From: a virus
IMG/VR virus record: IMGVR_UViG_3300020021_000012
Coordinates: 1-58,342 of that record
Direction: 5' to 3' (one strand)
DNA: 58,342 nucleotides
The position numbers were made by a program, and so were the translations under genes. The notes under the pieces are model-generated. The model saw only the letters and a list, made by a program, of their open reading frames with translations. It was not told where the DNA came from and did no database searches. Of this stretch, positions 5,202 through 58,339 are shown piece after piece; the stretch's first letter is position 1; each line of letters starts with the position of its first letter.

Positions 5202-6194
5202 TCAAACCTCCGCCGCTGCCTTCTGGTGATCCGGGTGGTGGTGGGAATAGGTCCGCGTTATGGTCTCCACCGTCATCCCCAAATGCCCCGCCGCTTCCCA
5301 GATCGGCACCCCGGCCTGCATCAGCCATGTTGCACGGGTGTGTCTGAGCGTATGCGGCGTGACCTTGCTCAGCCCCGCGCGCTTGACGGCCGCCGGGAAG
5401 GATGTCTTGAGCATCGCCACCCTGACCCCATCGTAGTGGCACAAGTATTTGACCTCCGGGGAATCGAGCCGGCGCCAGCGTCGCAGGTGCGATAGAATGC
5501 GCTTGCCTAATCGGACAGGCGGGGTACGCTTGCGCGCATCCTCGGCCTCGCCAGAGGCCCGGCGCCGCATCACTCCCCGCTCCAGATCGATTTGGTTCCA
5601 TGTCAGGCTCAGGATGACCGTGGGTCTACTGCCGGTGTAGAGCCCGAGTAGTATGAAGCGCGCCAGATGCGGTATTCTTCGTCCCGCGTTAAGGAGGGCT
5701 GCAGCTTCTGCTCTGGTAAGCCATCGGTCGCGGGCTTCTCGTTTGCCGGGGAGCACGATACTTGGTATCGCCGCCAAAGGACTCTTTTCTCGATGCCAGT
5801 ATCGGATGGCGGCTCGGAGGATTTCCAGATCACGGCGTGTTCCGGAACCTTCCCGGCTTCGAGCATATTCGCGACATGATCCGGGAGTGATATCGGATAA
5901 TCGAAGGCCACCGAACCATCGTCCCAGAACACCGAGATTGTATAAATTGTTCCGCGCGGTTTTGGTGTGCGGAACATGCTCTGTAGCGTAGACAGAAAGG
6001 ACATCTGAAATCAGCGGCGAGGGGCCGCGCTCCGGTGTGTGTTTTTGTTCGAGGTAGCTTTCAAGTTGCTTTGCAGCGTTTGCAACGTCCGCTTCAAGGC
6101 ACCCTGTGCGGACGAAGCTCGCTCCGTCGCGGATAACCCACGCGCCTCGCGCTTTGTCGAGATAAAGCCTCGGCGGCGATCTGCGACGCGGCAT
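5202..6194 (-). CDS. int: Tyrosine-family site-specific integrase
   Basis: This 330-residue protein is a tyrosine recombinase that would insert the phage DNA into the host chromosome. The catalytic set is complete: Arg190 in YTGSRPTVILSL, His281-x-x-Arg284 in HTLRHTRATW, His304 in AAGHLGM and Tyr316 in TRTYSHHHP. Residues 55-150 form the core-binding SAM-like domain. It starts at 6194 inside the excisionase-like gene (184-base overlap). attP was not identified; the short AT-richer stretch 5161-5201 just after the gene is one candidate place. Confidence 0.93.
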   Translation of the reverse strand: MPRRRSPPRLYLDKARGAWVIRDGASFVRTGCLEADVANAAKQLESYLEQKHTPERGPSPLISDVLSVYATEHVPHTKTARNNLYNLGVLGRWFGGLRLSDITPGSCREYARSREGSGTRRDLEILRAAIRYWHREKSPLAAIPSIVLPGKREARDRWLTRAEAAALLNAGRRIPHLARFILLGLYTGSRPTVILSLTWNQIDLERGVMRRRASGEAEDARKRTPPVRLGKRILSHLRRWRRLDSPEVKYLCHYDGVRVAMLKTSFPAAVKRAGLSKVTPHTLRHTRATWLMQAGVPIWEAAGHLGMTVETITRTYSHHHPDHQKAAAEV

Positions 6195-6364
6195 TTCTCT
6201 ATCATCTCCCGCACGCTACGAATTGTCGTAAAGTCTCGCTTGCCGATCCTGAACACGTCAAGGCGTCCCCGCGCGGCCTCGGCACGAAGGGTACTCGCTG
6301 TCACCTTGCCGCCGAAGACTTCCTTGCATGCCTCAGCGAGCGTCACGGGATCATCTTCTGTCAT
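6011..6364 (-). CDS. Excisionase-like / MerR-type DNA-binding protein
   Basis: The 117-residue protein begins MTEDDPVTLAEAC. Residues 6-50 (FGGKVTASTLRAEAARGRLDVFRIGKRDF) form a winged-helix DNA-binding pattern like those of Xis and AlpA. Its position directly before int and overlapping it by 184 bases supports a recombination directionality factor. The C-terminal 60 residues, encoded in the overlap, are basic. An in-frame TTG start at 6409 also exists; the ATG at 6364 was preferred. Confidence 0.6.
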   Translation of the reverse strand: MTEDDPVTLAEACKEVFGGKVTASTLRAEAARGRLDVFRIGKRDFTTIRSVREMIEKCRVADRRRGFISTKREARGLSATERASSAQGALKRTLQTLQSNLKATSNKNTHRSAAPRR

Positions 6365-6392: not shown

Positions 6393-6779
6393 CTAGTCTC
6401 CGCTGTCAACGCTCATGTCGAGCCCGCACTTACTGCAGCGCGCGGGATGCCAGCCGCGCGAATGGTTGGCGCCCGCGCCCTCGACCGGGGCATGGTCGCA
6501 GATCGCAAACTTCATCGCGGTCGCGCGGCAGGCGCCATCTTTCCACGCTGTCCAAGCGACGATGCCGGTGCCTTGCAGGCCGCCGCCCTGGCCATAGTCG
6601 AGGAAGAAGCGCGCGCCCCATTCGGTGCGACCGCCCAGCAGCGCGCGACCGGAATGCATCTCGCGATAGTGGAGGATCGCCGCGCCGACATCGCCTTCCA
6701 CGGCCTTCGCATTCGGCACCTCGACCTTGCCGTTCACGATAGGCATCAGGTCGTCGTCGAGTGAATATCGCTTGTTCAT
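6393..6779 (-). CDS. Duplicated hypothetical protein, copy 1
   Basis: The 128-residue protein starts at 6779 with AGGAGGG upstream. It is almost identical to the protein at 10395-10781: two differences were seen, at residues 2 (Asn/Thr) and 6 (Ser/Thr). The C-terminal part carries Cys and His positions (AICDHAPVEG, RGWHPARCSKCGLD) that could bind zinc. The N-terminal two-thirds is not recognised. Conservation at the protein level despite about 15 nucleotide changes suggests the product is functional. Confidence 0.75.
   Translation of the reverse strand: MNKRYSLDDDLMPIVNGKVEVPNAKAVEGDVGAAILHYREMHSGRALLGGRTEWGARFFLDYGQGGGLQGTGIVAWTAWKDGACRATAMKFAICDHAPVEGAGANHSRGWHPARCSKCGLDMSVDSGD
6395..6779. 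repeat. 385-bp direct repeat, copy 1
   Basis: This stretch matches 10397-10781 without insertions or deletions (constant offset 4002). About 15 mismatches were counted by eye. Both copies are in the same orientation and correspond almost exactly to one gene, so this is a gene duplication. Recombination between the copies would delete 4.0 kb of early genes, including the annealing recombinase. Confidence 0.9.
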
Positions 6780-10394: not shown

Positions 10395-10781
10395 TCAGTC
10401 TCCGCTGTCGACGCTCATGTCGAGGCCGCACTTGCTGCAGCGCGCGGGATGCCAGCCCCGCGAGTGGTTGGCGCCCGCGCCCTCGACCGGGGCATGGTCG
10501 CAGATCGCAAATTTCATCGCGGTTGCGCGGCAGGCGCCATCCTTCCACGCCGTCCAAGCGACGATGCCGGTGCCTTGCAGGCCGCCGCCCTGGCCATAGT
10601 CGAGGAAGAAGCGCGCGCCCCATTCGGTGCGACCGCCCAGCAGCGCGCGACCGGAATGCATCTCGCGATAATGGAGGATCGCCGCGCCGACATCGCCTTC
10701 CACGGCCTTCGCATTCGGCACCTCGACCTTGCCGTTCACGATAGGCATCAGGTCGTCGTCGAGCGTGTATCGTTTGGTCAT
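10395..10781 (-). CDS. Duplicated hypothetical protein, copy 2
   Basis: This 128-residue protein begins MTKRYTLDDDL and is nearly identical to copy 1 at 6393-6779. The start at 10781 has GAGGG nine bases upstream; the 20 codons upstream in frame are discarded because homology to copy 1 begins exactly here. The C-terminal CSKCG suggests metal binding. Function unknown. Upstream regions of the two copies are unrelated, so they may be translated at different rates. Confidence 0.75.
   Translation of the reverse strand: MTKRYTLDDDLMPIVNGKVEVPNAKAVEGDVGAAILHYREMHSGRALLGGRTEWGARFFLDYGQGGGLQGTGIVAWTAWKDGACRATAMKFAICDHAPVEGAGANHSRGWHPARCSKCGLDMSVDSGD
10397..10781. repeat. 385-bp direct repeat, copy 2
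   Basis: This is the second copy of 6395-6779, same orientation, with no indels. Differences cluster at third codon positions and at the first few codons. See copy 1. Confidence 0.9.
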
Positions 10782-20707: not shown

Positions 20708-21031
20708 ATGCCTTTCAAGAAGGGCCAATCCGGCAATCCGGGTGGCAAATCCAAAGAACTGAAGGAAATTCAAGCGGCTGCGCGCGAGCATGCGCCGGCC
20801 GCATTGCGCACGCTGGCTCGGATCGCGACCAAGGGCAAAACCGAGGCCGCGCAGGTCCGAGCTGCCGAGGCGTTGCTCGATCGCGGGTTCGGTCGGCCAG
20901 CACAGGCCCACACTGGCGAAGACGGGGGGCCAATCCGATTCCTGCTCGAGGGAATGACCGACGATGAGCTTGCCCGTATCGCCGCAGGAGGCCGCTCGGG
21001 CGCTTCTGCAGCGCCGGACGGTTCGTCGTAG
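20708..21031 (+). CDS. terS: Terminase small subunit, DUF5681 type
   Basis: The 107-residue protein opens MPFKKGQSGNPGGKSKEL, the signature FKKGQSGNPGG of DUF5681 proteins often found directly before large terminases. It then has a helical core (ALRTLARIATKG, AAEALLDRGFGRP). It should bind the packaging site and recruit the large subunit. It overlaps terL by 68 bases. Confidence 0.8.
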   Translation: MPFKKGQSGNPGGKSKELKEIQAAAREHAPAALRTLARIATKGKTEAAQVRAAEALLDRGFGRPAQAHTGEDGGPIRFLLEGMTDDELARIAAGGRSGASAAPDGSS

Positions 21032-22436
21032 CCTGGCTGAATGGGGTCGGTTCAAGGGCTTTGAGCCCGCCCCCCATCATCAACTGATCTGCGACGAGAT
21101 CGAGGACTTCCTAGCCAGCGACGACGAGGTGCTGCTGCTGTTTGCGCCTCCGGGTTCCGCGAAGAGCACGTGGGTCTCGGTTCTGTTCCCGGCGTCCTAC
21201 TTGGCCCGGTTTCCGCAAAACAGCGTCTTGTTCGCAACGCACTCGGTCGAGTTCGCCAAGCGATGGGGCCGAAGGGTCCGCAACGATATCCTGCTTGAGC
21301 ACAGGATGCTTGGTATCAACGTCGCGCCGGACAACCAGGCGGCCGATCGCTGGGCCCTCACGACCGGTGGCGAATATTACGCGGTTGGCGCCGGAACCGG
21401 CATCGCGGGCTTTCGTGCTGACCTCGGGCTCGGGGATGACTTCTTCGGCAGCCGCGAGGATGCATTCAGCGAGATTGTCCGCCAAAGGCGATGGGACTGG
21501 TACGTCGACGACTTCAGCGCCCGTCTGAAGCCTGGCGCCAAGCGTATCCTCATGAACACTCGCTGGCACGAGGAGGACGTGGCTGGTCGAATCCTCCAGC
21601 AGATCGACAAGGGCATCATTCGCGGGCGGGTGATATCGATCCCAGCGATTGCTGAGGCTGGCGATCCGCTCGGCCGCAAGGTCGGCGAATATCTCTGGGA
21701 TGAGCCGAAAGGCTACAATTACGGGGAGTTCCTACGGGCTCGCCAGCGCGAAACCTCGCCGATGATGTGGTCCGCGCTGTATCAGCAGCGGCCGGCTCCC
21801 GAGGAAGGCGATTTCTTCAAAGCCGACTGGCTCAAGCCCTACGACAAGGCGCCTGCGCTCGAAACGCTCACGACCTACGGCGGCTCGGATTACGCCGTTA
21901 CCGCGGATGGTGGCGATTACACGGTTCACGGCGTTGTCGGGATCGACCCCGAAAACCGCATGTACCTGCTCGATCTATGGCGCCAGCAGGCCTCGTCCGA
22001 GAAGTGGATCGATGCGTTCTGCGATCTGGTCATCAAGTGGAAACCGCTGGGCTGGGCCGAAGAGCAGGGACAAATCAAGGCCAGCTTGGGGCCGTTTATC
22101 AACAACCAGCAGCATGAGCGCAAGGCCTACGTGGCCCGAACGACGTTCCCCACACGAGGCGACAAGGCCGTGCGGGCTCAATCGATCCGTGGCCGCATGG
22201 CGATCGAGGGGCTGTACGTGCCGATCCACGCGCCATGGTATCCCGCGCTGAGGTCGGAACTGCTGAGCTTCCCTGCCGGCAAGCACGACGACCAGGTCGA
22301 CATGCTGGGGTTGATCGGTCAACTGCTCGACATGATGACCGCCGGCCGCGCGCCGAAGAAGCCCGAGCCCGACACGAGTTCCGGCTACCGCTCCGTTGTC
22401 GATCGCGAGCGCGGGCCTTCGCTGGTGACGATTTGA
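20964..22436 (+). CDS. terL: Terminase large subunit
   Basis: The 490-residue protein is a DNA-packaging ATPase/nuclease. The Walker A motif is APPGSAKST (61-69), followed by FATHSVEFAKRWGRR and LGDDFFGSREDA (Walker B-like region). The C-terminal nuclease region carries YGGSDYAVTADGGDYT and KHDDQVDMLGL with conserved Asp residues. With a P22-like portal, headful packaging is likely. The start lies in the end of terS. Confidence 0.93.
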   Translation: MSLPVSPQEAARALLQRRTVRRSLAEWGRFKGFEPAPHHQLICDEIEDFLASDDEVLLLFAPPGSAKSTWVSVLFPASYLARFPQNSVLFATHSVEFAKRWGRRVRNDILLEHRMLGINVAPDNQAADRWALTTGGEYYAVGAGTGIAGFRADLGLGDDFFGSREDAFSEIVRQRRWDWYVDDFSARLKPGAKRILMNTRWHEEDVAGRILQQIDKGIIRGRVISIPAIAEAGDPLGRKVGEYLWDEPKGYNYGEFLRARQRETSPMMWSALYQQRPAPEEGDFFKADWLKPYDKAPALETLTTYGGSDYAVTADGGDYTVHGVVGIDPENRMYLLDLWRQQASSEKWIDAFCDLVIKWKPLGWAEEQGQIKASLGPFINNQQHERKAYVARTTFPTRGDKAVRAQSIRGRMAIEGLYVPIHAPWYPALRSELLSFPAGKHDDQVDMLGLIGQLLDMMTAGRAPKKPEPDTSSGYRSVVDRERGPSLVTI

Positions 22437-22726: not shown

Positions 22727-22931
22727 ACGCAACTGGTCATCTCTCTATCGCCAGAGACCTCCACCGGATACCAGCAACTACGTGCTGCGGCGGCGCCCGT
22801 TCTTGCGGCGTTTGGTGTCCCACTATCGATGCTTTCGCTACGTAGGGCTCGGACCTATTGGGGCGTTGCGTGGGGCGTTCTGCTTGGCTCGCTGTGCTCG
22901 AGTGTCAGAGCCTCCATGCCACGATGAGTGA
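22719..22931 (+). CDS. Hypothetical small basic protein
   Basis: The 70-residue protein starts MSERNWSSLYRQRPP at 22719. It is rich in Arg and Cys (LRRRPFLRRLVSHYRCFRY, CLARCARVSEPPCHDE). The start overlaps the acidic frame by eight bases. Not recognised. Confidence 0.5.
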   Translation: MSERNWSSLYRQRPPPDTSNYVLRRRPFLRRLVSHYRCFRYVGLGPIGALRGAFCLARCARVSEPPCHDE

Positions 22932-22937
22932 GGCCGC

Positions 22938-23030
22938 ATGTTCATGATCGGCATCGCGATCGGCCTTGTTCTCGGTGTCCCAGCCGGCGTTGCGCTCGCG
23001 GTTTGGGCCGCGATACCCGAAACGCCATGA
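22938..23030 (+). CDS. Very small membrane protein
   Basis: This 30-residue frame is a single membrane span (IGIAIGLVLGVPAGVALAVWA). It ends over the start of the O-antigen ligase-like gene (ATGA), so it could be a leader gene that couples its translation. Confidence 0.45.
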   Translation: MFMIGIAIGLVLGVPAGVALAVWAAIPETP

Positions 23031-24118
23031 GTTCCGTCCTCGCCTTCCTCGTGCTCGCCGCCTATTGGCCCGGGATCGCAGGGCCTGCCACGACGCCACG
23101 CTGGGTCGCGCTGTTCACCTTCGTGCCGCTGCTGCTGTTCTTCGCCGATCGGGTGCGACTGACGCTCAGCCATGTCGCCGGGCTCGCCTTCATAGCCTGG
23201 TGTGCGGTGACGCTCGCATGGTCGGTGAGCCCGTTGGACGGCATCGGCGCGCTGGCCGAACTTGCCACTATCGGAGCCGTGTTCGCGCTGGGATCCCTGA
23301 GTGACGACCTGACCCCGCTCTATCGCGGTGCTGCGGTGGGGATCGGTGTATCGAGCGTCCTCGTCATCGGGCAATGGCTGCACCTGATCGACATTCCGGC
23401 GTTCTACCTGCCGGCCGCGCTGTTCGTGAACGCCAACCATATGGGCGAGGCTGCGGCGTTGATCCTGGTGGCCTGCATGTTCAACCGCATCTGGTGGGGC
23501 GTCATCGCATCTGCCCCTGCCTTGCTGCTCTCTGGCTCGCGTGCGGCGGTCCTGGCGGTTGTCATCGCCTGCCTCTATTGGCTGTGGGCGCATCGCCTGC
23601 GGGCGACCGCGGCGGTGTGCTGTGTGCTAGCCCTCTGGCTCGCCGTCGCGGCGTTCTTCATCGTCAAGCCCGACATGAACGGCCAGCACGAGCGGCTGGC
23701 GATCTGGTCGGATACGGCGCGCAATCTCACATTCACCGGGCAGGGCATCGGCTCGTATTGGGAGGCGTTCCCCGACATCGCTGTGGCGACCGACATCAGC
23801 CGTGTACGTCCCGATCATGCTCACAACGAGTTCCTCGACATTGCGTTCGAGACCGGGGCAGTGGGGTTCATGCTGTTCCTGGCATTTGTGGCCACGCTGC
23901 GCGGTCCATTCAATGTCGAGCGTGCCGTTCTGATCGCGCTCATGGTGGAGGCCTGCTTTGCTTTCCCATTTTCTAACGCATCCACCGCGTTTCTGGGAAG
24001 TGTTGCTGCGGGGGCTGCTGCTCGCTCTCGGCGTGACATTCGCAGTGAGGTTGTCGCTGGCCGAGATCGAATACGTGCGTGGCTGGCAGCCGGGAAAGCC
24101 GCTCAAACCGCAGTTTGA
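23027..24118 (+). CDS. O-antigen ligase/polymerase-like membrane protein
   Basis: This 363-residue protein has about ten membrane spans and the WaaL/Wzy (Wzy_C) signatures: LSGSRAAVLA at 168-177, RLAIWSDTARN...GQGIGSYW at 223-245, and DHAHNEFLDIAFETGAVG at 263-280 with the conserved His-Asn. Such enzymes join or polymerise lipid-linked sugar chains at the periplasmic face of the inner membrane. In a phage, this suggests alteration of host surface polysaccharide. Its last 40 residues lie in an overlap with the next frame and look less conserved. It lies between terminase and portal genes. Confidence 0.8.
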   Translation: MSSVLAFLVLAAYWPGIAGPATTPRWVALFTFVPLLLFFADRVRLTLSHVAGLAFIAWCAVTLAWSVSPLDGIGALAELATIGAVFALGSLSDDLTPLYRGAAVGIGVSSVLVIGQWLHLIDIPAFYLPAALFVNANHMGEAAALILVACMFNRIWWGVIASAPALLLSGSRAAVLAVVIACLYWLWAHRLRATAAVCCVLALWLAVAAFFIVKPDMNGQHERLAIWSDTARNLTFTGQGIGSYWEAFPDIAVATDISRVRPDHAHNEFLDIAFETGAVGFMLFLAFVATLRGPFNVERAVLIALMVEACFAFPFSNASTAFLGSVAAGAAARSRRDIRSEVVAGRDRIRAWLAAGKAAQTAV

Positions 24119-24215: not shown

Positions 24216-24282
24216 CGTGGCCAATTCCTCCCCGTCCCCCAACAACGTCCCCGTCAAATTCCGCGGCAAAGGAGAGCGTGAA

Positions 24283-24438
24283 ATGCCCAAGCCCCCGAAC
24301 ATGGATGTATCGACCGTCGCAGGTCCGAAGGGCGGCAAGCCCAAGTTCCCGCGCGGCCTGAAGAAGAAGGCCAAGCGGCTGCAGGGCCAAGGCCGCATCT
24401 CCGACAAGGCGATGAAGAAGATCACGGGTGAGGCGTGA
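24283..24438 (+). CDS. Lysine-rich small protein upstream of speD-like gene
   Basis: The 51-residue protein begins MPKPPNMDVS with a strong AAAGGAG eight bases upstream; a GTG start at 24217 would add 22 residues. It has PRGLKKKAKRLQ followed by GRISDKAMKKITGEA. The last part resembles the C-terminus of the ATP-grasp protein three genes on (GKISDRRFDRMVRAE), a SHOCT-like pattern. It could be a substrate or partner of the ligase. Confidence 0.6.
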   Translation: MPKPPNMDVSTVAGPKGGKPKFPRGLKKKAKRLQGQGRISDKAMKKITGEA

Positions 24439-24444
24439 GAGTAG

Positions 24445-24870
24445 ATGCCAGCCCGTTGCCGGCCAGCGCACGACAAGCACTACCATCTGCGCGAGCCATT
24501 CGGCTATCTCCTGACCCTCGATCTCTACGGCTGCAGGCCGTGCGTCTGTGACGACCTGAACCTCTGCTACGATTTCCTCGTTGATCTGGTGCGCGATCTC
24601 GGGATGACAGCGCAGGGCCCGCCGCACATTTACCGCAGCCCGCCTGAATTCCCCGACAAGGCCGGTCTGTCAGGCTGGATCGGCATGATTGAGAGCGGCA
24701 TTCAGATTCACACGCTCACGCCGAGGAGCTTCATCTCGATCGACATCTATTGCTGCCGGGACTTCACGTCGGATGGAGTGACCGAGTTCGTGCGGGACTA
24801 TTTCGGCGGTTGCCGGGAAATCGAGATGAACCGGATTCTGCGCGGCATGAAATACAACGAGGTTGTGTGA
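24445..24870 (+). CDS. SpeD-like pyruvoyl-dependent decarboxylase
   Basis: The 141-residue protein aligns with bacterial S-adenosylmethionine decarboxylase. Compared with the Thermotoga enzyme, residues Ser55, Ser63 (self-cleaved to the pyruvoyl group), His68 and Cys83 match Ser76, Ser84, His89 and Cys104 with identical spacing (GMIESGIQIHT, SIDIYCC). The substrate-related Glu72 is replaced (Pro93), so the substrate may have changed; some SpeD relatives have become ornithine or arginine decarboxylases. It is next to an ATP-grasp ligase and probably acts with it. Confidence 0.75.
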   Translation: MPARCRPAHDKHYHLREPFGYLLTLDLYGCRPCVCDDLNLCYDFLVDLVRDLGMTAQGPPHIYRSPPEFPDKAGLSGWIGMIESGIQIHTLTPRSFISIDIYCCRDFTSDGVTEFVRDYFGGCREIEMNRILRGMKYNEVV

Positions 24871-26208
24871 ATGCCATCGCATCGCGACCGCACGGTGCTG
24901 ATCTATGATCATGGGCTCTTCGTTGAGCTTGCCGTCACGCTCTCAAAGCACTTCGGCCGCGTGTTGCTGTACGTCCCCTGGGAGAACGGATATCCGAGGA
25001 GTAACGCCCCGCGCATCGGCCAGGGCATCAAGGGCGTCGAGCGCGTGCTGTCGCCGTGGGATCATTACGACGAGATCGACCTGTGGATATTTCCCGATGT
25101 GTATGAGGGCGCGCTGCAGCAGCATCTCGTCGACATGGGCAAGCGGGTCTGGGGCTGCCGGATGGGCGAGGAGCTGGAACTCGACCGCGTCAAGTCCAAG
25201 GAGCACTGTAAGGCGATTGGCATCGACATCGGCCCTTACGCGCACATCGTCGGCCTCGATGCGTTGCGCGAGCATCTGAAAGACAACGACGATCAGTGGG
25301 TGAAGATATCCGCCACCCGTGGCGACATGGAGACCTTCCACGCCCCGAACTACGCTCAGGTCGAGCAGCAGATCGACGAGCTGGAGCACAATCTCGGCGC
25401 CAAGAAAAAGGTGATGGAGTTCATCGTCGAGGAGGGCATCGATCCCGCCATCGAGATCGGCTACGACGGCTATACCATCGACGGCCGATATCCCAAGGGA
25501 GCCATCGTCGGGGTCGAGGTCAAGGACAAGGCCTACGTCTGCAAGACCATGCGCTATTCGCAATTGCCGGAGAAGGTCCGCAGCGTCAACGACAAGCTGG
25601 CCAAGACGCTGAAGGGCTACGGCTACCGTGGCTTCATCTCGACGGAGATCAGGTGCAAGGGCGATAAGGCCTACCTGATCGACCCATGCGCGAGGTGCGG
25701 ATCGCCGCCCTCCGAACTCTATCAGGTGATGATCACCAACCTTGCCGACGTGATCTGGGAAGGTGCCGGCGGCGTCGTAGTGGAGCCTGAATTCTCCCAC
25801 GAATGGGGCGCACAGATCCTGCTGCTGTCGGATTGGGCGGACAGCAACTGGCAGCAGGTGTCGTTCCCTGAATCCATCAGAGAGAACGTCAAGCTGCGCA
25901 ACATGACGATCATTGATGGAAACTATTACGTCATTCCGCAATGGACCGGCATGCCTGAGATTGGCGCCATCGTTGCGACCGGCGACACGCAGGAAGAGGC
26001 CATCAACGAGGTCAAGCGGTTGGCCGAGATGGTGCACGGCCACGACATGAACAAGCCGGTCGAGGCGCTGGAGAAGGCGCGCGACGACCTCAATGAGGCG
26101 CTGGGCACAGCAAAGCCGAAGTCCAAGCTTCAGGTTGAGGCTGAGCGGCTGCGAAGTGAGGGGAAGATTTCGGATCGACGGTTTGACCGGATGGTGAGGG
26201 CGGAATGA
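24871..26208 (+). CDS. ATP-grasp ligase-like protein
   Basis: The 445-residue protein directly follows the SpeD-like gene. It has an N-terminal Rossmann-like part (TVLIYDHGLFVELAV), a central ATP-grasp region (WVKISATRGDMETFH, KKVMEFIVEEGIDPAIEIGYD) and the metal-site region GFISTEIRCKGDKAYLIDPCAR. ATP-grasp enzymes link a carboxylate to an amine or thiol using ATP. The C-terminal 30 residues (LRSEGKISDRRFDRM) look SHOCT-like. A possible reaction is attaching the decarboxylase product (a polyamine-like amine) to a carboxylate; the substrate is unknown. Confidence 0.7.
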   Translation: MPSHRDRTVLIYDHGLFVELAVTLSKHFGRVLLYVPWENGYPRSNAPRIGQGIKGVERVLSPWDHYDEIDLWIFPDVYEGALQQHLVDMGKRVWGCRMGEELELDRVKSKEHCKAIGIDIGPYAHIVGLDALREHLKDNDDQWVKISATRGDMETFHAPNYAQVEQQIDELEHNLGAKKKVMEFIVEEGIDPAIEIGYDGYTIDGRYPKGAIVGVEVKDKAYVCKTMRYSQLPEKVRSVNDKLAKTLKGYGYRGFISTEIRCKGDKAYLIDPCARCGSPPSELYQVMITNLADVIWEGAGGVVVEPEFSHEWGAQILLLSDWADSNWQQVSFPESIRENVKLRNMTIIDGNYYVIPQWTGMPEIGAIVATGDTQEEAINEVKRLAEMVHGHDMNKPVEALEKARDDLNEALGTAKPKSKLQVEAERLRSEGKISDRRFDRMVRAE

Positions 26209-26378
26209 TGTCCATCCCGAAAGACGGAACCTACGTGGTTTTGCACCCCGCACAAATCAGCAACTTCGATTTGGTGTGCGCGTTCAAGGCTAACTATCCG
26301 CACACCGAGATCATCGTGTCGCAGAAACTACCTACAGGAAACGAAAGGACCCAGCCATGTACTTCAAGGAAGACGTAG
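26205..26378 (+). CDS. Hypothetical small protein
   Basis: This 57-residue frame starts in the stop of the ATP-grasp gene (ATGATG) and overlaps the next gene by 22 bases. The sequence DGTYVVLHPAQISNFDLVC and TEIIVSQKLP looks like a real small beta/alpha protein. No family is recognised. Coupling with the ATP-grasp gene is suggested. Confidence 0.5.
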   Translation: MMSIPKDGTYVVLHPAQISNFDLVCAFKANYPHTEIIVSQKLPTGNERTQPCTSRKT

Positions 26379-26794
26379 CGCGCCTCGTCAGCGAACTCGG
26401 CAACGTGAAGATGGAACCGCCCGTCGAGTTGGGTAAGGCCGACGACTTCGGTCTGTCGCTCGACCTGTTCGACCCCGTGTCTGGCCAGATCATCGCCCTG
26501 GCGCGGCCGGCGCGGATCGACCTCGGCCAGCCGCAAATCTTGCTGACCGCAACTCAGGCCCGCACTGCGGTTGCCGCTGCCCGCACCGGGCATCTGCATC
26601 GCGTTCGTGGCATGGGCTTCGCCTCGATCGAGGAATTCAACGAGGCGCACAAGCGCGACGTGGCGGCGGCCGATCTGAAGGCCAAGCAGGCTGAGGAGTC
26701 GGCCAAGATGAACCAGGCCCACGCCGACGCGGCGAACAAGGCTGCGGCCGATGCGCAGCCTAAGAAGCCGGCGCAGGCTGAGGCAGTCGCGTAA
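26357..26794 (+). CDS. Hypothetical protein before the portal
   Basis: The 145-residue protein starts at 26357 with AAAGGACC upstream. The N-terminal 80 residues are mixed (VARLVSELGNVKMEPPVELG, DLFDPVSGQIIALARPAR). The C-terminal 60 are Ala/Lys-rich and helical. The place before the portal gene suggests a head-related or ejection accessory protein; no family is recognised. Confidence 0.65.
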   Translation: MYFKEDVARLVSELGNVKMEPPVELGKADDFGLSLDLFDPVSGQIIALARPARIDLGQPQILLTATQARTAVAAARTGHLHRVRGMGFASIEEFNEAHKRDVAAADLKAKQAEESAKMNQAHADAANKAAADAQPKKPAQAEAVA

Positions 26795-26802
26795 GTAACA
26801 GC

Positions 26803-28803
26803 ATGCCCCAACCCGTCCTCGCAGCCATGGAAGCCCGGCCCCGCGGCATCTCGCCCGCGGTGTCGGGTCGCGTCCGTGATCCCGAGGATCGGCGATCGCG
26901 CAACGTCGAGGACGATGAGGACGAGAACTACCTCTCTGTCCGCGAACTGCGGAACCAGTTCGAGGATTACCTGACCTCCAAGGTCGACGAGATCGAGGAG
27001 CAGAAGGATTCGCGTCGTTATTACCATGGCTCGCAGTTAACGTCCGACCAACTCCGCGTGTTGCGTGCCCGCCATCAGCCGCCGATGACCTGGAACCGTA
27101 CCGGCCGCAAGATCAACGGCATCGTTGGGTTGGTGCAGCGGATGCGCTCGGACCCGAAGGCTGAGGCGACCAGCCCCAAGAGCGAGCAGGGTGCTGAGAT
27201 CGCCACGCAGTCGGTGCGCTCGGTGCTCTCCGCCAGCGACTGGAAGTCCTTGGAGCCGTGGTGCCTGCTGCAATGCGGCATTGATGGAATTGCCGGGGTG
27301 CAGTCGGTGCTCCAGAAGGATGCCCGCGGCGATTACAAGATCAGGCTCGAATGGGTCATTGGAGACGAGTATTTCTACGACCCGAAGTCCTACCGGCAGG
27401 ATTTCACCGACAGCCGCTACGAGGGCACATCCAAGTGGATGGACGTCGACGAGGCCATAGAGCTTTGGCCCGACGACGAGGAGAAAGAGGAGCAACTCCG
27501 CAGCCTGTTCGCCGGCGACACCGACATGACCACGAACCCGGACCGGGAAATCAAGTGGATCATCACGTCGAGCAAGCGCATCCGGTTGGTGCAGCACTGG
27601 TACAAGAAAAAGGGCAAATGGCGGTGGGCGTTCTACGTCGCCAACACCCTGATCGACCAGGGCACCTCGCCGTTCTTCGATGAGGACGGCAACAGCGCCT
27701 CGTCATTCGATATGTTCGCCGCTGCGGTGGATCATGACGGCGACCGCTACAGCTTCGTACGAAATCTGAAAGGCCCGCAGGACGCCCTGAACCAGGGCAA
27801 GTCCAAGATGCTGCATCTGGCCAATACCAAGCTGGTGCGCTCCGAGAAGGGTGCGGTCGATGATGTCGAGACGGCGCGGCGCGAGGTGGCGCGGCCGGAC
27901 GGCTGGGTCGAAACCAACCCGGGCCGGGTATTCGAGCTCGTCGACACCAAAATGGACCTCGCCGCCTTCACCCAGTTCACCGAGGATGCCAAGGCCGAGC
28001 TCGACGCCTACGCCAACAGCAATCTGGCCTCGCTCAACGGCACCGCGATCACGCAGATTTCCGGGCGGGCGATCGAACTGCTGCGGCAGCCTGGCATGGC
28101 CGAACTTGGCCCGTTTATCCTGGCTCAAAGGGCATGGAAGCTCCGGGTGTTCCGCAAGATTTGGAACGCGGTCAGCCGCTACTGGACCAAGGAGCGGTGG
28201 ATCAGGGTCAACAGCGACGATGCCAAGCTGGCCCAATGGCTGCAGGTCAATGGCCTCGGCCTCGATCAGTACGGCCTGCCGGCGATCATCAACGCGGTCG
28301 GGGCGCTCGACGTCAATATTGTGCTTGAGGAAGGCCGCGACGTCGCCTCCGTGATGGAAGACATCCAGGACCAGTTCAAGGGCTATCCGCCGGGCACCTT
28401 CCCGCCGCAGGTCTTGGTCGAGTTCTCGACCCTGCCGCGGTCGGAGAAGGACAAGTTCATGCAGATGATGGCGCCGAAGCCGCCTCAGCAGGACCCGGCA
28501 GCCGAGCTTATGAAGAAGCTCCAGCTCGAGGGCTTGGCCGGCGAGGTCGCTCACACGGCCGCGAAGACCGCCAAGGACACCGCGTCGGTCCAGCAGATTC
28601 TGGCCACCGCCGAAGAGAAGCGCGCCAAGGCCGCCACCGAGAGCATCAGGCCTGCCCACATGGCGCACGGTGCGGAGATCGATGCCGCAACCTTCGCCCG
28701 AGATACGCTCGCCCAGGCCCATCAGATCGCCACGGCGGGGCAGCAGCAGCCACAGCAAGCCTCACCGCAGAAACCGCCGGCACAGTTCCCGCTGCCGTTC
28801 TGA
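26803..28803 (+). CDS. Portal protein, P22 type
   Basis: The 666-residue protein has the layout of P22-like portals: a charged N-terminus, RRYYHGSQLTSDQLRVLRARHQPP, MTWNRTGRKINGIVGLVQRMRSDP, KIRLEWVIGDEYFYDPKSY and a long helical end rich in Gln and Ala. The portal forms the ring through which DNA is pumped and ejected. Size and position after terminase agree. The C-terminal Gln-rich tail (QQQPQQASPQKPP) may be the barrel or a flexible extension. Confidence 0.9.
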   Translation: MPQPVLAAMEARPRGISPAVSGRVRDPEDRRSRNVEDDEDENYLSVRELRNQFEDYLTSKVDEIEEQKDSRRYYHGSQLTSDQLRVLRARHQPPMTWNRTGRKINGIVGLVQRMRSDPKAEATSPKSEQGAEIATQSVRSVLSASDWKSLEPWCLLQCGIDGIAGVQSVLQKDARGDYKIRLEWVIGDEYFYDPKSYRQDFTDSRYEGTSKWMDVDEAIELWPDDEEKEEQLRSLFAGDTDMTTNPDREIKWIITSSKRIRLVQHWYKKKGKWRWAFYVANTLIDQGTSPFFDEDGNSASSFDMFAAAVDHDGDRYSFVRNLKGPQDALNQGKSKMLHLANTKLVRSEKGAVDDVETARREVARPDGWVETNPGRVFELVDTKMDLAAFTQFTEDAKAELDAYANSNLASLNGTAITQISGRAIELLRQPGMAELGPFILAQRAWKLRVFRKIWNAVSRYWTKERWIRVNSDDAKLAQWLQVNGLGLDQYGLPAIINAVGALDVNIVLEEGRDVASVMEDIQDQFKGYPPGTFPPQVLVEFSTLPRSEKDKFMQMMAPKPPQQDPAAELMKKLQLEGLAGEVAHTAAKTAKDTASVQQILATAEEKRAKAATESIRPAHMAHGAEIDAATFARDTLAQAHQIATAGQQQPQQASPQKPPAQFPLPF

Positions 28804-31729: not shown

Positions 31730-34700
31730 ATGTCTCTATGTCGTAGAGAGTTTTTAGCGTCCGTAGCTGCAATCACGCTCATTGGTTCGACAGCGGCACT
31801 TGCGCGCTTCCCGCACGGCGATCCAAACACATCTCCGCCGACAGTGCCGTTCTTCGTCGAAGTGACGATGACGGCACCGGACATAATTCGGCTGGAGATA
31901 CGCGATCCGATCATCCAGCGCGGGCTCTTCCAGCAGCTCGGGACGCCTGACGCCGCTGCCGCTGGCAGTTGGACGACACGGACACACCCCATCACGGGGG
32001 CAAGCACAGCGTGCTTCATCGGTGGTTTTAACCAGAACTTCGCACGCTTCACCGACGTGCTGTTTCCGAACTACTACAATCGTGCTGCTGGTGATGTCGC
32101 CGCCGACTGGTCGATTACGGGCGGCCTCACAGTCACGAATGTCTACCGGTTCTCGTGGCCCTACTGTGAGGGCATCGTTAATACTGGCGGCCAAACGACC
32201 GCGAACCAGACGACATTCCGGCATTACATCTGGCTCAAGGTTAGTTCTGCCCTGGTCTCTGGAACGAACTACGTCATCACGCCGCCGGCCGGCGTGTCGC
32301 TTGTACCCATCTCGTTCCCATTCAACGATAAGGTCACTCGGGCGTCGAGCATCGTTGCGAACCAGGTCGGCATCTCGCAAACCGATGACCTCAAGCTCGC
32401 ATACCTGACAGAGTTTATCCCAGGTCTCGGCCCCGTCAATTTTGCATCGACCTACGGCATCAGCAGCTTCAACATCCTCGATAGCGCTGGGAATGTCGCC
32501 TACAACACTGGGACCTTCGCGCAGCGGGTAACGCCTTCGACGACCGAGACCAGCGGCGGCGCGATCCGCTACTACATAGACACGACTGTTGCGCCGAAGA
32601 AGTTCGACCAGATCACGAATGCAAGCCCAGGAGTCATAAGGTCTATTGCTCACGGGTATTCCGGCGGAGAGATTATCTTCATTGTCGGCGCTGGCATCTC
32701 CGGGGGAGGGATAGTCAGCAACCCATCGCTTTGCGATACTCCGCTGACGGTCGTTCTCGTCGATGCCGATCACTTTTCTCTGACGGGGACGATTGCAACA
32801 AATAGTCCTGTCGGCAGCGCGATCAATACGCCGTCGATGACAACCTATGTTCCGGGAACGTTCATCGCGACTGGAAACTCATTCAATTCGGGCTATGACA
32901 GCCTGATCTACTCTGCCTATCCCTCCAACCGCGCCGGAACCTACGTCTACGGCCTCGACGCGAGCACTGCTACTGGACTAGCGGACGGCAGCTACTGCTA
33001 CCAAATTCCAGGGCTTGGCATCTCTGACTATTTCCCCGTGAACGCCAACGCATGGCTATCGGCCGCGACGACATGGGCGCAGGGCTATTACCATCAAACG
33101 TCCGGGATCGCGATTGACGGTCGGTTTGGCTATGCTCGTGGTCCAGCTCAAGTTGACGGCTTCGACGGGACGCAGCTTTTCCTTAGTCTATTGCCGATGG
33201 GTTTCACGTCTGAAGACGGCGGCTACAATGGCGGGAATGCCCTGGATCAGGGGCTATCTGGACTTGCTCCCTTCCTAACGGCAACGCGCGGTCCTGCTGG
33301 TTTGTTTGGCACCTTCCATGATGCCGGTGACTGGTGCTCGGTTCTTTACTACCACGCCGACGCGCCATGGGGTCTGCTCGATAGTGGCTACGAGTACATC
33401 CCGACAGCCGGCCATGCCACCAATTTCAATTTTCCGAAGATGTCGCAGACGTGGGGCCAGACCTACGCAGGGACCGACAGCCTGTCCGATGTCATTCACA
33501 TGGCGGTCTACTTCGCCGAGTTCTACCGGCTCGCCCAGAACGCATTCGGTGCGGTGCCCTCTGGAACGTCATTTGGGCAGTCCGGTTTCGGCGATGGCGG
33601 CGCGACTGAAACCGCGCCAAGCCCGGCGAACTATAAGGTGTGGGTGCTGAACGCCCCGGATCATCCGTCGACATATCTCTTTGCTGTCGTTGCCGCGAAG
33701 CTCGCGGTTGTGTTTTGGAATTTGGGGTTCACGACGCTCGGTAATCTGTGGGCGACCTCAGCCGAGAGTGCGTGGACCTGGGCGGAAGGTGTCTACACCG
33801 GCCTTCAGTCCGATACAAATTTCTACTACAACACGACCACTTATAACGGCGTCGCGCTTGGTCTTCAGGCCAACGCCAGTTGGTCTGGGGCGCAGTATTT
33901 GACGGCGCTCGGGACTTTCAGTGCCGGCACACCTTTGTCCTCAACTGGCATGATGAAATTTGGTGCGCAGCAGAGGTTCAATGCTGCGGGTGCATTGTTC
34001 CGAATGGCTGGCGTCGTTGGCCGTTCACAAGTAGCTTATGATGCGGTGGTGCATGCGTTCGGCGTTACCGGACTCCAGAACTCTTCCTGCACGCTTGGTA
34101 CTTGGGAGTACAGCCACGGTGCAGGATTCGACGCTGCGCTCTATGCCAGTGCGAACGGTAACAATATTTTCATCAACCCCATGAACACCGCCTCGACGGC
34201 GTCAGAGGCTACGAATGCCTACCGCACCTACAATGGCGGCATCGGTACGGGCGTTAATATCGATCAGGCGATTCACGGATACGTTCTCAGCAGCGCAAGC
34301 CCGACGAACCAAGCGCGTCTGCGCCGTCAGCTTCAGGGGCAACTGAGCGTCACGCTCGGCGCCAATCCGACCGGGCTCTGCTACTCCAGCAACTCAGGGA
34401 AACGCAGCACGCTCGGTATCCTGCATCGCGACTGGCAAGGGATGGGAAGCGGGTGCCCGCAGCCGACCGGATATACCGGCTATACCTGGGCTGGGACTAC
34501 ATATGCATTCGGCGTCTTCAACTTCAGTTCGGACTCGCCGCAAAACTTCACGGTGGAAAACCCGACCGGACTGTTTTCATCGACATTTGGCGTCAACCGC
34601 ATCGTCTACCCGCACAAATGCGCTGTTCCGATGTGGCGAGCGGTCCCGGAGGTCAGCTACTGCGTTCAGTTCATGGAGGGCACGACATGGCAGACGATCG

Positions 34701-34747
34701 TGCCTAACCTGCTGGCGGCGATGTGGCTGAATTACTGGAATAAGTGA
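31730..34747 (+). CDS. Large GH9-like glycoside hydrolase with twin-arginine signal
   Basis: This 1005-residue protein begins MSLCRREFLASVAA and then ITLIGSTAALA, matching a Tat signal (RRxFL followed by a hydrophobic stretch and AxA). The N-terminal part looks like beta domains. The C-terminal half (about 440-1005) resembles glycoside hydrolase family 9: FHDAGDWCSVLYY near residue 527 (GH9 DAGD motif), LSDVIHMAVYFAEFYRLAQN, and LGANPTGLCYSSNSG toward the end (GH9 LG.NP pattern). It may cut beta-glucan or host polysaccharide. Cytoplasmic folding then Tat export, or virion depolymerase, are both possible. Confidence 0.65.
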   Translation: MSLCRREFLASVAAITLIGSTAALARFPHGDPNTSPPTVPFFVEVTMTAPDIIRLEIRDPIIQRGLFQQLGTPDAAAAGSWTTRTHPITGASTACFIGGFNQNFARFTDVLFPNYYNRAAGDVAADWSITGGLTVTNVYRFSWPYCEGIVNTGGQTTANQTTFRHYIWLKVSSALVSGTNYVITPPAGVSLVPISFPFNDKVTRASSIVANQVGISQTDDLKLAYLTEFIPGLGPVNFASTYGISSFNILDSAGNVAYNTGTFAQRVTPSTTETSGGAIRYYIDTTVAPKKFDQITNASPGVIRSIAHGYSGGEIIFIVGAGISGGGIVSNPSLCDTPLTVVLVDADHFSLTGTIATNSPVGSAINTPSMTTYVPGTFIATGNSFNSGYDSLIYSAYPSNRAGTYVYGLDASTATGLADGSYCYQIPGLGISDYFPVNANAWLSAATTWAQGYYHQTSGIAIDGRFGYARGPAQVDGFDGTQLFLSLLPMGFTSEDGGYNGGNALDQGLSGLAPFLTATRGPAGLFGTFHDAGDWCSVLYYHADAPWGLLDSGYEYIPTAGHATNFNFPKMSQTWGQTYAGTDSLSDVIHMAVYFAEFYRLAQNAFGAVPSGTSFGQSGFGDGGATETAPSPANYKVWVLNAPDHPSTYLFAVVAAKLAVVFWNLGFTTLGNLWATSAESAWTWAEGVYTGLQSDTNFYYNTTTYNGVALGLQANASWSGAQYLTALGTFSAGTPLSSTGMMKFGAQQRFNAAGALFRMAGVVGRSQVAYDAVVHAFGVTGLQNSSCTLGTWEYSHGAGFDAALYASANGNNIFINPMNTASTASEATNAYRTYNGGIGTGVNIDQAIHGYVLSSASPTNQARLRRQLQGQLSVTLGANPTGLCYSSNSGKRSTLGILHRDWQGMGSGCPQPTGYTGYTWAGTTYAFGVFNFSSDSPQNFTVENPTGLFSSTFGVNRIVYPHKCAVPMWRAVPEVSYCVQFMEGTTWQTIVPNLLAAMWLNYWNK

Positions 34748-58101: not shown

Positions 58102-58328
58102 CTTTCGATCCGAACGACAGGAAGCGTCACCACATTCGTCGGTCGGTAGATCAGGCCGGGGGCAATTACACATTCACCTTGGCTGAGCTGCGCAAGTTCG
58201 ACGCCGCCCTTGGTCTCTAAGGCGATTCTGTCGTACTCATATCGTTGGCCGTCTTTGGTGATGATGTAGGACGGAATGTCGCGTTCCCGATAAGTACCGA
58301 TGCTGGGTCCATGCTCGATCACGGCCAT
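58098..58328 (-). CDS. Hypothetical small protein (complete copy)
   Basis: The 76-residue protein starts MAVIEHGPSIGTYRERDIPS at 58328 behind an AGGAGG-type site. It has beta-rich segments (YIITKDGQRYEYDRIALETK, VIAPGLIYRPTNVVTLPVV). It spans the right terminal repeat, and its N-terminal half recurs at 1-115. Not recognised. Confidence 0.7.
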   Translation of the reverse strand: MAVIEHGPSIGTYRERDIPSYIITKDGQRYEYDRIALETKGGVELAQLSQGECVIAPGLIYRPTNVVTLPVVRIER

Positions 58329-58339
58329 TTGTGTCCTCC
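58214..58339. repeat. Terminal direct repeat, right copy
   Basis: This is the second copy of bases 1-126, in the same orientation. It contains the first 38 codons and the AGGAGG-type ribosome binding site of the 76-residue minus-strand gene that ends at 58098. Only the three bases beyond it depart from the left copy. Confidence 0.95.

Follow-up and report, generated by a model that had tools for sequence, protein, structure and literature searches.

Why would a soil phage encode a SpeD-like decarboxylase and an ATP-grasp ligase side by side, in a cassette set among its virus-assembly genes? The window, as we call the whole stretch of DNA analyzed (58,342 nucleotides, IMG/VR record IMGVR_UViG_3300020021_000012), carries an exact 126-base repeat at its ends (positions 1-126 and 58214-58339; the last three bases of the window differ). 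Hence, it is probably a complete phage genome. The genes for the terminase large subunit, TerL (20964-22436; phrog_38, 1.2e-88), and for a P22-type portal protein (26803-28803; PF16510, 2.3e-74) enclose first a Wzy_C-like gene, then one for a small basic protein, then the SpeD-like and ATP-grasp genes, and last a gene for a 145-amino-acid protein, all on the plus strand. The cassette thus lies between terminase and portal, as a first-pass annotation had stated, and the Wzy_C-like gene lies there too. The same gap is empty in the related phage Pam5. The Wzy_C-like gene (22928-24118; PF04932, 7.1e-14) encodes an O-antigen-ligase-like membrane protein; this accessory neighbor has homologues upstream of the pair at loci L001, L006, L022, and L024 and is a candidate surface-changing lysogeny gene. 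Elsewhere in the window, two near-identical 128-amino-acid minus-strand open reading frames (ORFs) (6393-6779 and 10395-10781) appear to reflect a recent duplication, and a 967-amino-acid late-region protein (31844-34747) has no Pfam match (E<=0.1).

The SpeD-like gene (24445-24870; 141 amino acids) had been read as encoding a pyruvoyl enzyme that keeps the catalytic residues of its Thermotoga counterpart. Its product matches PF02675 (AdoMet_dc) with an E value of 6.4e-14 and 52.6 bits, against a curated cutoff of 25, and hence belongs to this superfamily of proenzymes; it also falls in a clade of phage SpeDs. We made structure models of the window's two enzymes. The AF2 model of SpeD (pLDDT 88) has the AdoMetDC type of fold rather than an unrelated one, with a TM score of 0.87 to Thermotoga maritima AdoMetDC (1tlu). 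Ser76, Ser84, His89, and Cys104 stand for Thermotoga Ser55, Ser63, His68, and Cys83 with identical spacing. Family match, spacing, and fold therefore bear out the earlier reading. All residues for self-cleavage are present (Glu83-Ser84, His89, and Cys104), and cleavage is predicted between Glu83 and Ser84. The Glu72 counterpart is indeed missing, as had been claimed: Pro93 occupies that position, and Leu91 replaces Trp70. The residue comparison thus supports an intact pyruvoyl site with altered substrate residues. We rejected a bona fide AdoMetDC, since Glu72 and Trp70 are replaced and the score against the NCBIfam AdoMetDC equivalog TIGR03330 (38.2 bits) is below the cutoff of 75.65.

Which substrate might this enzyme use? 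SpeD homologues of freshwater and marine phages are proven pyruvoyl-dependent decarboxylases of ornithine (ODC; SpeDC) or arginine (ADC; SpeDA) (PMC9992855, PMC10407285), and a central block with Gln, Thr, Phe, and Tyr is diagnostic of ODC (JBC 2023, Michael group). Gln87, Thr92, Phe96, and Tyr102 of the window SpeD follow in that same order, a column match that we infer. The Thr92 position is Glu in 76 of 77 related phage SpeDs, so that Thr is unconserved among relatives; the Gln, Phe, and Tyr of the 77 correspond to Thr, Tyr, and Phe in Thermotoga AdoMetDC. Because the window SpeD groups with a phage family bearing three of the four ODC residue types, conversion of ornithine to putrescine is the prime candidate reaction. 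Judging from these residues, the substrate would most likely be L-ornithine and the product putrescine.

The ligase gene (24871-26208; 445 amino acids) starts at the base right after the SpeD stop codon. Its product matched no Pfam (E<=1) or NCBIfam model. However, a profile search of the PDB placed PurD chains at the top, and the structure model (pLDDT 91) has the fold of GAR synthetase (2yw2; E 3.6e-18; TM 0.69/0.72). Six residues, K110, K145, E187, E259, D271, and R275, are invariant across 38 ligase homologues; we take their roles toward ATP and metal to be those of the analogous residues in PurD and biotin carboxylase. The protein therefore has the fold, the two ATP lysines, and the acidic metal residues of an ATP-grasp enzyme, but not the metal-binding Asn that is the third metal ligand of PurD, which is Cys or Thr in this family. 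Fold, profile search, and retained ATP residues justify the original call of an ATP-grasp ligase, and the ATP-binding residues, K110 and K145 included, are in place in the structural alignment, with a different third metal ligand. Could it be a true PurD? We rejected this: the E. coli stretch IEFNCRFGDPE reads IDPCARCGSPP here, and the family models do not match. A structure search of BFVD gave no close viral match (best TM, 0.46/0.55). The ligase ends in a helical-hairpin tail at about residues 419-444.

Is the pairing more than chance? A scan of IMG/VR viruses found the ligase at 56 loci. Its main lineage was defined as the window together with loci of about 50% identity or more, and in 32 of the 39 main-lineage loci with readable upstream DNA, a SpeD-like gene lies upstream of the ligase, usually adjacent to it. 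The seven without SpeD are L029, L031, L032, L033, L035, L036, and L042, with L035 and L036 looking like one genome copied twice. No SpeD was seen in the DNA read around the ligases of a more distant lineage (L043-L057; identity of about 40%), and a search without a positive control found none elsewhere in the ligase-only records at E<=0.01. Together, the distant loci and the seven main-lineage loci suggest that the ligase can act alone or with a host amine. In a reciprocal scan with type II SpeD, the subfamily with Asp in place of His68, the ligase was downstream at 41 of 43 loci, several of them contigs already present in the ligase scan. At L102, where no ligase was seen, the record ends just past SpeD. 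Among type II SpeDs whose downstream DNA could be read, only that of L106 lacks the ligase; its SpeD gene (5962-6360) is broken by an in-frame stop, and no ligase was found in the record.

The pair lies between TerL and portal in most podoviruses, in the baseplate/tail region at L030, and beside internal virion-type proteins at L028, L034, and L085; at L087, both genes are present, separated by other ORFs. Since these late contexts differ, the pairing is not explained by a single block of genes inherited within one type of phage. Purifying selection acts on both genes, with dN/dS ratios of 0.05 to 0.26 for unsaturated pairs. Recurrence in dozens of IMG/VR viral loci, under such selection, is more than chance. 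The suggestion that the two enzymes work together is thus supported by co-occurrence far beyond one genome.

PF02675 matches each of the 30 cassette SpeDs compared (E<=0.1). All of them have Ser84 and Cys104, and nearly all have Glu83, while the His68 position holds His in 6 and Asp in 24. On the SpeD tree, type I, the window kind (98/89), and type II (100/99) form separate clades; most cassettes carry type II. On the ligase tree, the type I loci do not form one clade but require three changes (p-AU 0.019, a lenient value because the group was picked after the first tree had been inspected). Type I being one clade on the SpeD tree and not on the ligase tree, we conclude that SpeD partners were swapped while the ligase stayed the same. 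Type I groups (99/97) with a family of phage SpeDs present in 180 contigs, those listed being mostly 38 to 47% identical. At 77 loci of this widespread family, no ligase was found in the flanking DNA that was read, which reached at most about 6 kb to either side.

The first-pass annotation had completed a four-gene cassette with two small proteins, a Lys-rich one of 51 residues and one of 57. Both enzyme genes are real, but the small members did not survive in that form. The 51 residues are only the C-terminal part of a 73-amino-acid basic protein with a GTG start (24217-24438). Its N terminus, PNN..V.F.GK..RE, is common to relatives: alignments to those at L001 and L002, for example, begin at residue 1, and MAE..PNNK.V.F.GK..RE recurs in many members of a cluster of 62 proteins from 34 loci, in which both flanking small proteins were pooled. 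Because relatives share this extra N terminus, we place the start at GTG 24217. The 57-residue ORF (26205-26378) is probably no gene and was dropped from the cassette: it has no homologue at L001 to L004, was passed over by the coding-score caller with a low score, and overlaps the conserved 145-amino-acid gene (26357-26794). The latter is an optional member between ligase and portal, with homologues at L001, L007, L010, and L042.

The 73-residue protein ends in a cassette-specific tail, GRISDKAMKK. In the podovirus lineage, a hairpin tail with the pattern G-[KRLM]-[IV]-S closes the ligase as well as the small proteins that flank the pair. This pattern was found in 89 of 1013 proteins, 86 of them in the ligase and small-protein families, versus 1 after shuffling, a correlation limited to one phage lineage. 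We presume a likeness to short C-terminal hairpins of the SHOCT type. The simplest inference from a tail common to the ligase and the small basic proteins is that they probably dock to each other. Hence, the shared tail of the Lys-rich protein, once proposed as a substrate, looks more like a docking tail than a mark of the ligase's substrate. Cassettes in other phage types lack the small basic protein. A different kind of small protein, with the motif H-E-[LM]-x-E, lies beside the pair or in the place of SpeD at L016 (7658-8023), L031 (980-1396), L035 (7576-7992), L043 (5315-5896), and L105 (5685-5972); the two that were scanned had no Pfam match. It could be a third member of the module.

Outside IMG/VR, tblastn with three diverged ligase members found no match in 50,697 phage records, and the window ligase had no match in plasmids. 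Two scans of cellular genome contigs yielded a single relative of the ligase, carried by a Bradyrhizobium sp. YR681 contig. Relatives were present in 2 of 266 Bradyrhizobium genomes and in 1 of 398 genomes drawn from the phylum, that one being YR681 again. The second Bradyrhizobium relative lies in a 7.15-Mb contig together with genes for portal, scaffold, and capsid proteins, so at least this one belongs to a prophage. Neither host genome had a PF02675 match at E<=1e-5. A cellular source of the ligase was considered and rejected, as the cellular scans gave only the YR681 contig and the few Bradyrhizobium matches. With such a contig and a prophage among the carriers, temperate phages and hosts exist among these soil nitrogen fixers.

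What might the two enzymes do together? For the pair, we observed the families, predicted folds, catalytic residues, genetic coupling, partner exchange, and purifying selection. That it stays together in many uncultured phages probably means that an amine is made and attached in one pathway. We tentatively favor, at somewhat less than even confidence, a module of two steps: SpeD would produce a small amine, putrescine perhaps, which the ligase would then couple to a carboxylate. The pair would be expressed late, as a single metabolic module. The SpeD proenzyme would cut itself at Glu83/Ser84 to form the pyruvoyl group and would then decarboxylate an amino acid other than AdoMet, which in the window is most likely L-ornithine, giving putrescine. 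In a presumed second step, the PurD-like enzyme would activate a carboxylate as an acyl phosphate, and the SpeD amine would react with it to form an amide on a small molecule or protein. In the podovirus lineage, the C-terminal hairpin tails would probably dock the ligase and the small basic proteins. Against this two-step module speak the lost Asn ligand, the ligase loci without SpeD, the Asp in place of His68, and the unconserved Thr92. A more specific version, which we regard as doubtful, is a novel module that builds the conjugate during particle assembly, to be fixed to a virion component or to the packaged genome; its enzymes may be held together through the tails common to the small basic proteins.

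Perhaps SpeD contributes no amine at all? Inactive AdoMetDC-like subunits act as regulators in trypanosomes, and the SpeD-like protein could likewise be a noncatalytic, or merely self-processing, partner that binds and controls a ligase that alone is catalytic. Near-obligate pairing fits such a complex, as does the Asp found in 24 of 30 cassette SpeDs for His68, which Thermotoga needs for processing. However, a pseudoenzyme would not need the invariant Ser84 and Cys104 or the nearly invariant Glu83, and the window-type family occurs without the ligase at 77 loci; we consider this reading unlikely. Somewhat less probable is that the ligase modifies a protein, placing either the amine from SpeD or some amino acid on a small tail-bearing, capsid, or portal protein. 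Small proteins sharing the ligase's tail do flank the pair, and in most lineages head or tail genes surround the cassette. Yet the pairs at L028, L030, L034, and L038 have neither small proteins nor tail, the PurD fold class mostly couples small molecules, and the common tail suggests docking rather than a substrate.

The two genes might also be mere neighbors, with SpeD adding to the putrescine available for late translation and DNA packaging, and the ligase being an unrelated occupant of an accessory hot spot. The TerL-portal gap holds other accessory genes and is empty in Pam5, and ligase-free phage SpeDs of this kind are common. This explanation sits poorly with a pair kept in unrelated contexts and with a type II SpeD found essentially only with the ligase, and we rate it as improbable, below protein modification. 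Attachment of the product to phage DNA, as a polyamine-type base modification, has a precedent in the putrescine-modified thymine of Delftia phage phiW-14. It is very improbable here: DNA offers no obvious carboxylate to an ATP-grasp ligase, and the window gene list, which is not an exhaustive family scan, contained no recognized gene for hydroxymethyl-pyrimidine synthesis or for a pyrophosphorylase. The DNA modification raised earlier is thus unsupported, with no base-hypermodification gene recognized in that list. The two-step module remains our preferred reading.

Phage SpeD homologues were so far known as enzymes of polyamine metabolism, encoded singly or together with other polyamine genes. 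One such cluster, in the jumbo Microcystis phage MaAM05 (L118, 2498-5276), holds two SpeD genes, speE, and an agmatinase gene and is apparently a polyamine pathway. The tight pairing of SpeD and ligase, surviving changes of phage type and SpeD subfamily, points to a second step and a further product. A conjugate fixed to a virion component or genome would, if real, be chemistry not known in phages. Type II, with its constant Asp in place of the processing His, raises the question of how pyruvoyl formation could differ there.

How does the pair compare with known systems? Like SpeDC and SpeDA, the window SpeD belongs to the AdoMet_dc family, keeps the pyruvoyl Ser, His, and Cys, and has lost the AdoMet-type substrate residues; it groups with the 180-contig phage family, with which it has the Gln, Phe, and Tyr positions in common. 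Unlike them, it is paired with an ATP-grasp ligase, a class absent from the texts describing those enzymes (PMC9992855, PMC10407285); the Thr position is not kept in its relatives, and most cassettes carry the subfamily with Asp for His68. It shares the fold and the Ser55, Ser63, His68, and Cys83 counterparts of T. maritima AdoMetDC, a class 1b SpeD, but has Leu91 and Pro93 for Trp70 and Glu72. The ligase resembles PurD (glycinamide ribonucleotide synthetase) in fold (TM of about 0.7), ATP lysines, an acidic metal residue, and an Arg. It differs in being only 13 to 17% identical in structural alignment, in reading SATRGDMETF at the glycine-rich loop, in having Cys or Thr for Asn, in its added C-terminal tail, and in lacking a purine context. 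LUZ24-like phage UFV-P2 encodes an ATP-grasp enzyme with an amidoligase, and jumbo phages encode R2K ligases; these are likewise phage ligases without an assigned substrate, and the available parts of those reports mention no SpeD partner (PMC3890496, PMC7824862). Our literature search found no description of a SpeD and ATP-grasp pair, which is weak evidence of absence and agrees with the first-pass view that this combination is not known as a described phage system. We conclude that the components are of known kinds and that their combination is new.
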